Origin: a bacterium | GTDB lineage: Bacteria; ARS69 | Assembly (NCBI GenBank): GCA_025774865.1 | Contig: JALGZO010000311.1 | Span: 1 to 9,629 of the forward strand | Length of the DNA stretch: 9,629 nt | Reading direction: 5' to 3' | Shown: in pieces, positions 2,822-9,629 of the stretch | How the letters are laid out: each line of letters starts with the position of its first letter | Numbering within the stretch: the stretch's first letter is position 1 | Position numbers and translations under genes: made by a program | Notes under the pieces: model-generated | Told to the model about the DNA's origin: nothing | What the model saw: the letters and a program-made list of their open reading frames with translations, nothing else | Databases searched by the model: none

Positions 2822-3742
2822 TCACTCGACGTTCTTCAACTCGTCCAGCTCCTTCCGTAGCGACTCGATCTCCGCGCGAAGCTCGTCGATCGCTTCCTTC
2901 ATCGCTCCCTTCACTTCGTCGTCTCCCATGATCTCGACCACGTGCCGCCGCAGGCCGTTGGCGTGTCGATCCCAGTCGAAATCGAAATGAGGAGGCAGAC
3001 CCATCCCGAGGTGCCCGAAGCCGAGCGGGGACTCCCGCACCTCGATCGTCGCCTTTCCCTTCTTCTGTTTCTTGTCGCGGATCCAGACGACCTCGACCTC
3101 GGACTCCTCTTCGAAATCGCGGATCACCGCTCGGAGCTCCTCCGGGTTCGTCACGTCGGTGCCGCCCACCGCGACGATCACGTCGCCGGCCTTCAGTCCG
3201 AGCTTGGCGGCGGGACTTTCCTCGACGACCTCGGCGACGAGCGCGCCGCCGTTCTCGGCCCCGAAGAACTCGCCCAAACCTCCGCTGAGTGGTTGCGTCA
3301 TCACGCCGAGGTAGCCGCGGTTGCCTCCCAGCCGGAGCTCGTGAGGTCCGCGGAAGCCGGGCTGTCGGCTCGGCCTCTCAGCGAGCTTCGCGCGCACCGT
3401 CGCACTCTTGCCATCGCGCAGGTACTCGATCTCGACCTCGTCGTTCACGCCGTGCTTCCCGACCGCGCGGCGGAGCGTCGAGGGCGTATCGACCTTCTCG
3501 CCGTCAAGGGCGACCACGATGTCGCCTGACTTGAGCCCCGCATCCTCCGCGGGACTACCGTCCATCACCTGGCCGACGAGGACGCCGGAGTCTTCCTGCA
3601 TGTTCAACGCTTCCGCGAGCCCGCCCTCCAGACGCTGAAGCGAGACGCCGAGATAGGCGCCGTCCGGACTCGCCAACCCGACCACGGGCGTGGCCGCGAG
3701 CAGGGCCACGACCAAGATCGCGGCGGGTTTCCGGGAATTCAT
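2822..3742 (-). CDS. Exported tandem-PDZ protein without a protease domain
   Basis: A 306-residue protein. A signal peptide spans residues 1 to about 24 (Arg4-Lys5, then AAILVVALLAATPVVGLA). Two PDZ domains follow, at about 29-120 and 143-236. Each begins with the carboxylate-binding loop (AYLGVSLQ at 29-36, GYLGVMTQ at 143-150) and contains a matching core (SPAEDAGLKSGDIVVALDG at 63-81; SPAAKLGLKAGDVIVAVGG at 176-194). A Gly/Pro/aromatic linker leads to a charged C-terminal helix (about 276-305, ELRAEIESLRKELDELK) that looks like a coiled coil for self-association. There is no trypsin-like or S41 protease domain, so it is probably a periplasmic binding or adaptor protein resembling the PDZ half of HtrA/DegP. 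The ATG at 3742 was chosen for its signal peptide and the GGGAGAG ribosome site 7 nt upstream; the longer open frame beyond it is spurious. Confidence 0.88.
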   Translation of the reverse strand: MNSRKPAAILVVALLAATPVVGLASPDGAYLGVSLQRLEGGLAEALNMQEDSGVLVGQVMDGSPAEDAGLKSGDIVVALDGEKVDTPSTLRRAVGKHGVNDEVEIEYLRDGKSATVRAKLAERPSRQPGFRGPHELRLGGNRGYLGVMTQPLSGGLGEFFGAENGGALVAEVVEESPAAKLGLKAGDVIVAVGGTDVTNPEELRAVIRDFEEESEVEVVWIRDKKQKKGKATIEVRESPLGFGHLGMGLPPHFDFDWDRHANGLRRHVVEIMGDDEVKGAMKEAIDELRAEIESLRKELDELKNVE

Positions 3743-3865: not shown

Positions 3866-5275
3866 ATGCTGTCGGCTCTCGCGCCCGTCGCGACTCTCGT
3901 CCTTGCCTGCACGGGCCCGTACTGCGCTCCGGACACCGACTTCGAGCGACCGACCCTCGGCGCCATGGGAACGGCCGGGGCGCCCGCGCTCGCCGTCGCG
4001 CCCGACGGTGCCGCACTCCTGCTGTGGGAGAGCCGGGTCGGGGGCGAGTCGGACATCCTGTTCAGTCGCCGCGAGTCCGGCCCGGATGGACGTTGGCTCG
4101 CGGAACCGATCCGCCTGGACACCGACCCGCCAGGGACGTCGCGGTCGATCGAGCCGCGTCTGGCCACCGGCCCCGAAGGTCGGATCTATGCCGCCTGGCA
4201 GGACGGGCGCAACGGCAAGGACGACATCCTGTTTTCGAGCTCGATCGACGGAGGACTCGGCTGGTCGAAGGAGATTCGCCTCGGTGCCACCGCGGCCGGC
4301 GTCTCGTCGGCGTCGATGGCGGCGCTGGCCGCTGGCGCGGGCGGCCACGTGTTCGTGACATGGGAGGACACGCGCGACGGTGAGCGAGACGTCTATCTCG
4401 CACGTTCTCTGGACTTCGGATCGACCTGGGATGAGCGTCGCATCAACTCCGGCGAACCGGGGGCGAGCGCCTCGTACCACCCTCAGATCGTCGCGGCCGA
4501 CGACGGGACACTCCTCGTGGTCTGGTGGGACGAGCGCCACGGTCTCTCCGATCTGTACGTGCGCTGGAGCGGGGATTTCGGCGCGACCTGGAGTCCCGAG
4601 GTGCGACTCGATTCCGGCGAGCCCGGTGCCGTGCCGAGCCGCGACGCGAGGGTCGCGGTCTCCGGCGACCGCGTCGTCATCGCGTGGCAGGAGGCCCCCG
4701 ACGACCCGTTCGCGACACTCGTATCGAGGACGTCGGAGGATCGCGGGGCGAGCTGGGGAGAGATCCGGGAGATCGGCCGGGGGCGGCATCCGTTCCCCGT
4801 CGTGATCGGGGATCATTCGCCGTGCTTCGCCTGGCTCGTGGCGCAGCGGGCCGGACCGGCGGAGAAGACGTCGATCGGAGGGCGCATTCGCGAGATGCCG
4901 CAACCCGTGCGCCTTCAAGCCATGCACGCCAGCGCGGAGGGCCCCGGACGGGAAGTGCAGGTGTTGTCATCGCTGACCGGTCCGGCGTCGCTGTGGCTGG
5001 GAGCTGCGCCCGACCGGATCTGGGCGGTCCGGACGGGAACGCTCGTGGGGCGGGCGGCGCTCGAAGTGTTCGAGAACCCGGGAGACCAGCGCTGGAGCTC
5101 GGCTATCCAGCTCACGTTCGGGCTCGATCTCGTCACGACGGACGTGGAGATCACGGCGCACTCGCTCCGGGGGGCGGTGAGCGCCGATGGGGTCGTGCAT
5201 ATCGCGTGGGTGGCCGACTACGATGGCGTCGGCGATCTCGGCTACTTCCGCCTGCAGCCGAGCGAAGACCGCTGA
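3866..5275 (+). CDS. Exported sialidase-fold (BNR/Asp-box) beta-propeller protein
   Basis: A 469-residue protein built from propeller blades. Four Asp-box motifs (S-x-D-x-G-x-x-W) are visible at 126-133, 181-188, 235-242 and 290-297. A second motif, W-x-x-x-R-x-G-x-x-D-[IVL], recurs near residues 54, 111, 166 and 221, giving a blade spacing of about 55 residues. A further related segment (HIAWVADYDGVGDLGYF) lies near the C-terminus at 445-461. The N-terminus is a short hydrophobic segment ending in LVLAC (Cys15), possibly a lipoprotein signal, but it lacks a basic n-region and the lipobox is poor. The catalytic hallmarks of true sialidases (the FRIP motif and a clear arginine triad) were not seen, so this is probably a non-enzymatic surface or periplasmic propeller. 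The PDZ gene diverges from its 5' side. Confidence 0.82.
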   Translation: MLSALAPVATLVLACTGPYCAPDTDFERPTLGAMGTAGAPALAVAPDGAALLLWESRVGGESDILFSRRESGPDGRWLAEPIRLDTDPPGTSRSIEPRLATGPEGRIYAAWQDGRNGKDDILFSSSIDGGLGWSKEIRLGATAAGVSSASMAALAAGAGGHVFVTWEDTRDGERDVYLARSLDFGSTWDERRINSGEPGASASYHPQIVAADDGTLLVVWWDERHGLSDLYVRWSGDFGATWSPEVRLDSGEPGAVPSRDARVAVSGDRVVIAWQEAPDDPFATLVSRTSEDRGASWGEIREIGRGRHPFPVVIGDHSPCFAWLVAQRAGPAEKTSIGGRIREMPQPVRLQAMHASAEGPGREVQVLSSLTGPASLWLGAAPDRIWAVRTGTLVGRAALEVFENPGDQRWSSAIQLTFGLDLVTTDVEITAHSLRGAVSADGVVHIAWVADYDGVGDLGYFRLQPSEDR

Positions 5276-6695: not shown

Positions 6696-7802
6696 TCAGG
6701 CATCGTCGAGCGCCCGGCCGAGTCGGGCGAGCGCTTCGTGCAGGCGGTCCTCCTCGATTCCCCAGCTGATTCGGATCCACCCCGGCATCTCGAAGAACTC
6801 GCCCTCGGCGACCGCGACGCTCTCACGTTCGAAGAGATTCGCCGCGAAGCGGCGGGTGTCGGACACGCGCTCGAGCTCGAGAAACCCGGAAAGCCCACCG
6901 TCGGGGCGCGTCCAGCTGACGTCGCCCCGACCTCCCATCCAGGTCTCGACGATCGAGAGCCCCCGCGCGGCGATCTCGCGCGAACGCGCCAGCACGGAGC
7001 CGCGATGTCTCAGTACGCGGAGAGCCGCCGCCTGCGACCAGCTCGCGCCGTTGACTGCGAGGTAAAACGAGAGCTCCTTCATGGGCGCGATCACATCGGG
7101 CGCGCCCACGATCCAGCCGACGCGCAGTCCCCCGAAACCGTGCACTTTCGTGAGGCTCGTCGTCGTGACGAAGCGAGGTGAGATACGGTGGGCCGGAGTC
7201 GCGCCCGCGACGAATTCGAGATACACCTCGTCAAAGAGGACGTGGAAGTCGAAGAGCTCCGCGAGCTCGGCGAGCTCGTCGAGGAACCCGGCCGGGACGT
7301 CGACGCCGGACGGATTGTGCAGCCGCGTGAGCACGACGGCCTTCACGGGATCACCGGGCTGCTTCGCGAGCTCCCGGATTTCGCTCGGGGACGGCTGCCA
7401 GCGCGCGTCCGGCCGACGCGCGAACCCGTTCACGGCGGCCCCGTGGAAGCGGGGGATCTCCTCCAGAGACGGATACGACGGACGCTCCACGAGAACGCGG
7501 TCTCCGGGACCGGCCAGGGCCGCGAGCGCCGTGTAGTTCGCGAGGCTGGCCCCGCCGGAGACGAGAACGCACTCGGCGTCCACGCCGTGCGCCGCCGCGA
7601 TCGCATCCTTGAGAGCGGGGTCGCCCCAGAAGTCTCCACCCGAGGAGAACGGGTCGCCCCCCTCGGCGCCATCTCCCCGCACGAGGCGCGCGAGCTCGCT
7701 TTCGGGGGGCACCATGACGCCGCTCGACCCGAGCGAATAAGTCGCTCGCTCGGAACGTTCCTTCGCCCAGTGCATCATGTCGAACCGTCGAGGGAAACGC
7801 AT
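6696..7802 (-). CDS. PLP-dependent aminotransferase, class I/II fold
   Basis: A 368-residue fold-type I PLP enzyme. The visible active-site residues are: a GGASLANY segment at the phosphate-binding turn (83-90), the NPSG motif with Asn163, Asp191 in FDEVY (pairing with the pyridine nitrogen) with Tyr194, Lys219 in SLTKVHGFGGLRVGW as the Schiff-base lysine, Arg227 in the same stretch, and Arg344 in RISWG as the likely substrate-carboxylate arginine. The length is slightly short for the family (about 390), because the N-terminal arm is brief. It probably transaminates an amino acid or related amine in the cytoplasm; the substrate is not readable, and it resembles the bacterial MalY/Aat-like 'aminotransferase class I and II' annotations only in general. 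There is no Shine-Dalgarno sequence before the ATG; a TAGTCT box sits 6 nt upstream. A second in-frame start exists at Met9-Met10. Confidence 0.9.
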   Translation of the reverse strand: MRFPRRFDMMHWAKERSERATYSLGSSGVMVPPESELARLVRGDGAEGGDPFSSGGDFWGDPALKDAIAAAHGVDAECVLVSGGASLANYTALAALAGPGDRVLVERPSYPSLEEIPRFHGAAVNGFARRPDARWQPSPSEIRELAKQPGDPVKAVVLTRLHNPSGVDVPAGFLDELAELAELFDFHVLFDEVYLEFVAGATPAHRISPRFVTTTSLTKVHGFGGLRVGWIVGAPDVIAPMKELSFYLAVNGASWSQAAALRVLRHRGSVLARSREIAARGLSIVETWMGGRGDVSWTRPDGGLSGFLELERVSDTRRFAANLFERESVAVAEGEFFEMPGWIRISWGIEEDRLHEALARLGRALDDA

Positions 7803-7814: not shown

Positions 7815-7899
7815 AGGCAATCCGGAGCGCGACGCGCCATCACAGATCGCAGGAGATTGACCCTTCTCACCCGGCTCGCGTCGAGGCATATTTCCGGAA

Positions 7900-7905
7900 A
7901 GGAGG
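7900..7905 (+). promoter_or_regulatory. Strong Shine-Dalgarno AGGAGG for the selenoprotein gene
   Basis: AGGAGG, within AAAGGAGGAG, lies 6 nt before the ATG at 7912. It is one of the best ribosome sites in the window, although the frame hits UGA after only ten codons. This supports real translation from 7912. Confidence 0.8.
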
Positions 7906-7911
7906 AGCCGC

Positions 7912-8145
7912 ATGAAGGTCACCATCGAATTCTGCAAGGTTTGAAACTACGATCCCATCTCCGCCAGTCTGGCGGAGGCGATCGAGAAGGAATTCGGCGC
8001 CGACGTGACGCAGATCGCCGGCGACGGAGGAATCTTCGACGTCAAGGTCGACGGCGCACTGGTCTACTCGAAGCACGAGACCGGCCGACACATTCGTGAC
8101 AATCAGGAAGTACTCGACTTGATTCGCGAGCTTCAAGAGACCTGA
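7912..8145 (+). CDS. SelW-like (Rdx family) selenoprotein; in-frame UGA at 7942-7944 read as selenocysteine
   Basis: A 77-residue protein if UGA (7942-7944) is decoded as Sec at position 11. The residues are then MKVTIEFCKV-U-NYDPI, giving a CxxU redox motif (Cys8, Sec11) at the end of the first beta strand, exactly where the Rdx/SelW thioredoxin-like family carries CxxU or CxxC. Other family marks follow in the same frame: an amphipathic helix (18-28), an FGADV strand, the GGIFDVKVDG segment (39-48), YSK (52-54) with a following ETGR, and a C-terminal helix (65-74). The full length matches the family's compact size (about 75-90 residues). The codons after the UGA remain GC-rich at third positions, and the frame stays open to a TGA at 8143-8145. 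Family members are thought to be thiol/selenol oxidoreductases. The gene diverges from the aminotransferase gene and converges with the barrel gene. Confidence 0.9.
7951..7983 (+). promoter_or_regulatory. Candidate bacterial SECIS hairpin downstream of the Sec UGA
   Basis: An upper stem pairs 7959-7965 with 7971-7977 (CTCCGCC/GGCGGAG, all Watson-Crick) around an AGTCT loop; an A-T closing pair would leave a GTC loop. A lower stem pairs GATC (7951-7954) with GATC (7980-7983). Between the two stems, A7957 and T7958 are bulged on the 5' side. The upper stem starts 14 nt after the UGA. Counting the U of UGA as 1, the bulged U is position 17. The hairpin is entirely within the coding sequence, as in bacterial SelB-dependent elements, and the loop shares GUCU with the E. 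coli fdhF element (AGGUCU). SelB recognition is inferred. Confidence 0.65.
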
Positions 8146-8175: not shown

Positions 8176-9507
8176 TCACTGCCCGACGGTGAAGCCGAAG
8201 CGGTAGGTCCAGGCGTCGTGACCGCGGTCGAGCCGGCGGGTGATGTCGAGGCGGAGTTGACCGCCTCCGCCGGGCACTCCCAGGAGGTTCTGGCGGATCT
8301 CGATCCCGGTGGAGAAGCGATACTGCACATCGGCGAAGTGGACCGGAGTGCCGTCTCGCTCCTGGCCCTGGAAGATGGCGGCCGCATCGAAGAACGGCCC
8401 CGGCTGCAGGTGCAGACGGCCGACGAACGGGACCCACTTCAGCAGATCGGTGCCGAGCTTGTAGTCGAGTCGAGCGTGAGCGAACTGCCGCGCCGGGATC
8501 TCGTTCACGTCGTAGCCGCGGAGCGTCTCGAACCCACCGAGCAGGTGGAGCCCTTGCCAGGGCACGTCGCCGGTCGCGGCGCCGCCCATGAGCCTCGCCG
8601 TCAACAGGTCGCCGAGCCACAGTAGCTTTCGCCCGACGATCTCGGCCCGCCACGACTCGTAGTCGAAGTCGCCGCCCAGGGCCCGTCCCGACACCCGACC
8701 GGACGCACTTGCCGCGAAGGATCCCCGGTCCTCGTCCCCAAACGCGAACTTCAGTTTCGCGATGCGGCTCTCGCCGGGGTCGATCGGCGGATTGGGCCGG
8801 AAGGAGCCCGACGCCAGCGAAAAGTCCGTCGCATTGGACAGCGACTCGAGATCTTCCGCACGGAAACCGAGCCCGATTCCGACGCGGCCGGGGGTCACGC
8901 CGAGCGTCGCGGACAGGCCTTCCGCGAGGAAGTAATCGTCCCAGTCCTCCCCGAGCAGAAGCGCGTTCAGACTGTTTCCGGCGATGCCTCCCGATCCGTA
9001 CGAGTACACGTCGCGGGCGTGCGCGACCTCGAGCGTGGGGTCGACGGGGCCGGGCGAGAACCGCACGCGCAATCCGCCGCGCCATGTGACTTCCTCGCTC
9101 GCCCACCCGTACCCGACCTGACCGAACGCACGGAGCGGGAACGGCGTCGGCACGGAGAGCTCCGCCCCCGGAATCACGTTCACGCCCTCGACCCGGTTGT
9201 ACCGGAACCCGGCGAGCTCGGTGTCGAGCCGCCACCGCCGCTCGTATTCGACGTACCCGTTCGCGGGCTCAGGCATCTCGCCGGTCGCTTCCCAGGCGCG
9301 GACGAGGCTGTCGACTTCCGCGTCGGAGATCGACAGTGCCTGGAGCCGGAACGCCTCGTCGGTGCGGTCAGCGAGGTCGTCGAGGTAATTCGACAGGGAG
9401 CTGTCCGCCGTTGCGGCCGGCGGGCGCGGGGTGGAGTCGGCGGGGGCCGGTGCCTGGGCAGACGTCACCGTCGGCACCAACGCGATCGCAGTGATGAGCG
9501 ATCTCAC
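8176..9507 (-). CDS. Omp85-superfamily-like outer-membrane beta-barrel without POTRA domains
   Basis: A 443-residue protein. Residues 1-18 are a signal peptide (ITAIALVPTVTSAQA, cleavage after AQA), followed by a Pro/Ala-rich linker (19-36) and a short helical region (about 38-75). From about 88 the chain is beta-barrel strands. FRYNRVEG (101-108) resembles the strand-1 signature seen in DUF5686- and surface-antigen-type barrels. GGFETLRGYDVNEIP (324-338) contains LRGY (329-332), matching the conserved loop-6 [V/L]RG[F/Y] tetrad of Omp85 proteins. FFDAAAIFQ (372-380) and STGIEIRQNLLG (399-410) fit the last strands of that family. There is no room for POTRA domains, so it is not BamA itself. 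The GTG start at 9507 was chosen for the signal peptide, a GGAGGT site 9 nt upstream and the GTGA overlap with the preceding gene. Confidence 0.85.
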   Translation of the reverse strand: MRSLITAIALVPTVTSAQAPAPADSTPRPPAATADSSLSNYLDDLADRTDEAFRLQALSISDAEVDSLVRAWEATGEMPEPANGYVEYERRWRLDTELAGFRYNRVEGVNVIPGAELSVPTPFPLRAFGQVGYGWASEEVTWRGGLRVRFSPGPVDPTLEVAHARDVYSYGSGGIAGNSLNALLLGEDWDDYFLAEGLSATLGVTPGRVGIGLGFRAEDLESLSNATDFSLASGSFRPNPPIDPGESRIAKLKFAFGDEDRGSFAASASGRVSGRALGGDFDYESWRAEIVGRKLLWLGDLLTARLMGGAATGDVPWQGLHLLGGFETLRGYDVNEIPARQFAHARLDYKLGTDLLKWVPFVGRLHLQPGPFFDAAAIFQGQERDGTPVHFADVQYRFSTGIEIRQNLLGVPGGGGQLRLDITRRLDRGHDAWTYRFGFTVGQ

Positions 9508-9629
9508 CGTTCCGTGACCTCCACCACCGGTGTCGTCTCCCAACCTTCGTTCAGCTTGTGGTCGCGGAAGTGGACCATGAACTCGACCGTGTCCGGGATG
9601 TCGTCGTCGAACACGCGCAACCATCCCAT
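9504..9629 (-). CDS. C-terminal end of an unrecognised protein, cut by the window edge
   Basis: The last 41 codons of a minus-strand gene (LRVFDDDIPDTVEFMVHF... ending VVEVTER). Its TGA (9506-9504) overlaps the barrel gene's GTG start as GTGA, so the two are probably translationally coupled. A Met codon lies exactly at the window edge in frame (9629-9627), so it could be either an internal Met or the true start. The acidic and aromatic composition reads as real protein, but no family is recognised. Confidence 0.6.
   Translation of the reverse strand: MGWLRVFDDDIPDTVEFMVHFRDHKLNEGWETTPVVEVTER
9517..9522 (-). promoter_or_regulatory. Shine-Dalgarno GGAGGT for the barrel GTG start
   Basis: On the minus strand GGAGGT is followed by 9 nt and the GTG at 9507. 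It lies inside the end of the upstream gene and supports the GTG start over the long open frame reaching 9624. Confidence 0.65.

Follow-up and report, generated by a model that had tools for sequence, protein, structure and literature searches.

A SelW-like Rdx-family gene with an in-frame UGA, very probably read as selenocysteine, in a bacterium of a thinly sampled phylum

SelW-like selenoproteins of bacteria have been in the literature since 2005 at the latest (PMC1088965), and in the Sargasso Sea and GOS surveys they form the most abundant selenoprotein family (PMC1088965, PMC2398784). For the SelW of Campylobacter jejuni, read-through is backed by ribosome profiling and peptide evidence (PMC11955535). 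SelW genes that had been overlooked by annotation have also been reported before (PMC4607533). Here we analyze a locus in a stretch of 9,629 nucleotides, referred to as the window. Homology identifies the locus as a true gene for a small redox protein of the Rdx family, of the bacterial SelW-like type, and we are close to certain that it encodes a SelW-like Rdx protein whose UGA codon 11 would be decoded as selenocysteine via SelB, tRNA-Sec(UCA) and a bSECIS element. Since standard gene callers take UGA for nothing but a stop, they can overlook or cut short such genes, and this one is a clear instance.

The original prediction had described a Shine-Dalgarno sequence, an ATG, ten codons, an in-frame TGA and 66 further codons, and direct reading of the DNA agrees, with a TGA stop after the 66 sense codons (Table 1). 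Translation with the UGA as a residue yields 77 amino acids (MKVTIEFCKVUNYDPISASLAEAIEKEFGADVTQIAGDGGIFDVKVDGALVYSKHETGRHIRDNQEVLDLIRELQET), in which the predicted C8-K9-V10-U11, GG-I-F (39-42) and S53-K54 segments are all present. At the base composition of the window (68% GC), 66 open codons alone have a chance of about 0.23 (TAA and TAG counted as stops), and the open frame past the UGA is no evidence by itself; the significance of the gene rests on homology. The predicted kinship with Rdx/SelW proteins is borne out by the Pfam Rdx profile (PF10262), which matches residues 2-73 over profile positions 1-74 of 74 with 59.9 bits (curated cut-off 22.6 bits; E 2.8e-16), and by TIGR02174 CXXU_selWTH (NCBIfam; 48.3 bits, cut-off 34.2). 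The Rdx match crosses the UGA in a single frame, and solved SelW-type structures are also matched by sequence. Downstream of the UGA, changes are greatest at third codon positions in three of three family pairs, each of which also has more synonymous than non-synonymous change. This GC-rich DNA also contains ORFs in antisense and other frames, as would be expected if the real gene lay in another frame, for example the 89-aa antisense ORF 7867-8136, and the Rdx resemblance were due to chance. However, the strength of the Rdx match, a codon-position pattern that fits the sense frame, and the conservation of the sense-frame protein over phyla refute this idea, which we regard as extremely improbable.

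Table 1. Positions in the window of the SelW-like gene and its elements
Feature	Position	Strand	Basis
Shine-Dalgarno-like sequence AGGAGGAG	7901..7908 (approximate bounds)	+	direct reading
SelW-like (Rdx family) selenoprotein CDS, 77 residues and TGA stop	7912..8145	+	translation, Pfam Rdx, TIGR02174, predicted fold
CxxU motif TGC AAG GTT TGA, residues 8-11	7933..7944	+	both columns invariant Cys/Sec in protein alignments
In-frame UGA, putative selenocysteine codon	7942..7944	+	TGA in 48/49 homologous loci, Sec machinery in genome
Core hairpin of putative bSECIS, CUCCGCCA-GUC-UGGCGGAG, loop 22 nt past UGA	7959..7977	+	MFE, covariation, invariant loop G
Terminating TGA, must act as stop in the same mRNA	8143..8145	+	direct reading

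The protein is predicted to have a thioredoxin-like Rdx fold. An AlphaFold2 model built from the protein of the window together with 25 relatives, with Cys substituted for Sec, reaches a pLDDT of 93.9 and has the topology E-H-E-E-E-H, with CxxU between the first strand (2-8) and the first helix (14-28). The 23 PDB matches at E ≤ 0.001 comprise only bacterial SelW-related proteins, MIEN1 and mouse SelW; the best is 2fa8 (TM 0.88), and mouse SelW (2npb) stands at TM 0.77. Thioredoxins rank below SelW-type structures in similarity to the model.

Read in frame, codon 11 is TGA in 48 of 49 homologous loci from about ten phyla and TGC (Cys) in the remaining one, with no other sense codon seen, although 48:1 is not a family-wide ratio, since the search used the Sec form as query, which favours the Sec clade over more distant Cys forms. 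The loci stem from MAGs labelled Planctomycetota, gamma- and deltaproteobacteria, Verrucomicrobia, Gemmatimonadetes, actinobacteria, Dehalococcoidia, Zixiibacteriota, Holophagae, SAR324 and Fimbriimonadaceae, among others; a profile-based scan of viral contigs found no relative. Among 98 genomes, SelA is present in 13 of the 15 with the UGA form versus 29 of the 83 without it (Fisher P 3e-4), and the two UGA-form genomes that lack a SelA match are 67% and 86% complete. No SelA match was found in two Cys-form genomes, G074 and G053; the Cys form of G053 comes in addition to the one TGC locus among the 49. Within the phylum of the window, four of the five genomes examined have the UGA form and three have SelA; the fifth genome is 82% complete. 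A Cys-type Rdx gene turned into a pseudogene by a recent nonsense mutation (TGC or TGT to TGA) would likewise show one stop codon interrupting an intact frame. Such a mutation does not account for the same TGA at 48 loci over many phyla or for the conserved frame beyond it, which together refute the pseudogene reading; the Sec machinery in the genome and the covarying hairpin after the TGA (both described below) speak against it as well, and we consider it very improbable.

The MAG to which the window belongs, as contig 314, spans 4.7 Mb and is 92.65% complete, with an estimated contamination of 8.3%. If the UGA is a selenocysteine codon, as originally predicted, the host must carry a Sec-insertion system, and a search of this genome family by family recovered all of its parts: selA (C592, 543 bits), selB (C584, 367 bits with neighbours in the frame), selD (C477, 369.5 bits) and a tRNA-Sec with anticodon TCA (C40, 72.7 bits). 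This SelA shares 66% identity with its counterparts in two other genera of the family (G002 and G003), compared with 41-51% for the SelA of seven unrelated genomes; the four contigs with Sec genes have a GC content of 0.65-0.69, versus 0.68 for the window. Given the higher same-family identity and the matching GC, the SelA is probably native, and a binning error unlikely. The SelD of this genome (L011, G000:C477:1420-2355, minus strand) has an in-frame TGA of its own in the N-terminal motif HTAGU-ASK and is probably itself a selenoprotein.

Conserved TGA, Sec machinery and Rdx match together support the selenocysteine reading of codon 11, and the locus makes selenocysteine use by its host very probable. 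The frame would also stay open with TGA as any other residue, as under a genome-wide reassignment of UGA, e.g. to Trp or Gly, with no local Sec recoding. Yet TGA terminates the gene itself and four neighbours (2822-3697, 3866-5275, 6696-7802 and 8176-9624), and Cys is aligned at codon 11 in Sec-less relatives. The TGA terminators and the Cys/Sec column refute reassignment, against which the presence of selA, selB, selD and tRNA-Sec argues too; we give it hardly any credence.

According to a published model (PMC13188914), a bSECIS has a loop of 3-9 nt that carries a G at position one or two and lies 16-37 nt from the UGA, a stem of 4-16 bp and an MFE ≤ -7.5. The hairpin in the window, with its GUC loop starting on G 22 nt after the UGA, agrees with this model. 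The predicted MFE of the 49 nt from the UGA is -21.7 kcal/mol, versus -12.1 ± 2.7 for shuffles (z about -3.6), a z-score that is strong in the window and weak in most homologues. Loose bSECIS criteria are passed by the window hairpin but also by 39% of its dinucleotide shuffles, and by 39 of 49 homologues, with shuffled sequences passing 3-51% of the time. As these criteria are weak by themselves, the weight falls on covariation, the invariant loop G and the choice of serine codon.

Across 32 distinct relatives, 90% of cells in the seven-pair stem are paired versus 18-55% for slid partners, and double-sided stem changes number 18 versus 4.9 in shuffles; the alignment behind these values (A3) excludes minus-strand loci and the actinobacterial members, which have a different hairpin and do not form the same stem. 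In an alignment of all sequences, 83% are paired versus at most 62% for slid partners. Every one of the 43 distinct UGA-form sequences has a loop that begins with G. Where the codon that contains this G encodes serine, it is AGY in 29 of 29 cases, whereas AGY accounts for 62 of 197 serine codons in the rest of these genes (P 1.5e-13, a value that overstates the number of independent events, since the sequences share ancestry). The protein sequence offers no easy reason for this preference for AGY. The conserved hairpin provides a family-specific marker for finding more SelW-like selenoproteins.

A genome of the same family contains a second, divergent Rdx-like frame (L095, G001:C33:8699-8944, minus strand) with an in-frame TGA in the motif CPTU, which translates to MKIEIVYCPTUAGNQQKAASLAARIEKKLGVGVSLRPGSIGQFDVLVDGEPIAQRGGNWFTRGFGLGYPDFERVLQTLEARR. 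It has the hairpin GCGAGTCTCGC at the same position, with an AGT codon, and scores under the NCBIfam cut-offs. No close copy of this frame was found in the 98 genomes.

The UGA-form gene lies in nearly the same surroundings in two other genera of the family (G002 and, in part, G003), as judged by equating neighbour genes with those of the window from their translations. In G002, as in the window, it stands between genes for an aminotransferase and an Omp85-like protein, with an enoyl-CoA hydratase adjoining, whereas G003 has the hydratase and the aminotransferase in common with the window and differs in the other neighbour. The Omp85-like neighbour in the window (8176-9624, minus strand) is an outer-membrane protein that matches Omp85 and DUF5686 weakly; its gene is convergent with the selenoprotein gene, an order kept in G002. 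Elsewhere in the window, two adjacent open frames on the plus strand (600-1859 and 285-590; 420 and 102 aa) lie beside an M48 peptidase gene and have no Pfam match. The neighbour genes gave no hint of a redox partner.

Together, these data suggest a model in which SelB with tRNA-Sec(UCA) would decode UGA codon 11 as selenocysteine, guided by a bSECIS hairpin within the coding sequence, 15-33 nt downstream of the UGA. Family, reading frame, UGA conservation, Sec machinery and hairpin are established by computation; from them we infer that selenocysteine is inserted in vivo, and decoding of the UGA in this way is very probable. The product would be a 77-residue thioredoxin-like protein with its C-x-x-U redox centre between first strand and first helix. 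Motif and predicted fold point to a thiol/selenol redox protein as the most likely function; the selenolate would attack a disulfide or a peroxide-oxidised partner, and the Cys would resolve. More tentatively, and with somewhat less than even confidence, we suggest that Sec use is ancestral and has been retained in this thinly sampled phylum, and that the bSECIS hairpins of SelW-like genes are a single homologous RNA element, conserved at a fixed distance of 21-22 nt in most sampled bacterial phyla rather than evolved anew in each lineage.

Among known systems, the solved bacterial SelW-related proteins (2fa8, 3dex, 2obk, 2ojl, 2oka and 2p0g) and mouse SelW (2npb) share the predicted thioredoxin-like fold (TM 0.77-0.88) at 21-32% sequence identity, and where aligned, 2fa8 and 3dex carry Cys in place of the Sec of the window protein. 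Like C. jejuni SelW, which is encoded on CJnc60 (PMC11955535), the window protein has about 80 aa and an internal UGA, but the C. jejuni protein is documented by ribosome profiling and peptides, whereas that of the window is predicted from sequence. The top NCBIfam match by E-value is NF041051 SelTWH_Campy (4.9e-20), with 71.5 bits under the equivalog cut-off of 88; by this score, the window protein is a relative rather than a member of that narrow model. Compared with the prokaryotic SelW-like selenoproteins of the Sargasso Sea and GOS surveys, which are likewise SelW-related, with CxxU, UGA-encoded Sec and a downstream bSECIS, nothing essential differs, except that the window gene comes from a thinly sampled phylum, with five genomes examined. 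The gene is a further member of the long-known bacterial SelW-like family, one of the commonest bacterial selenoprotein families.
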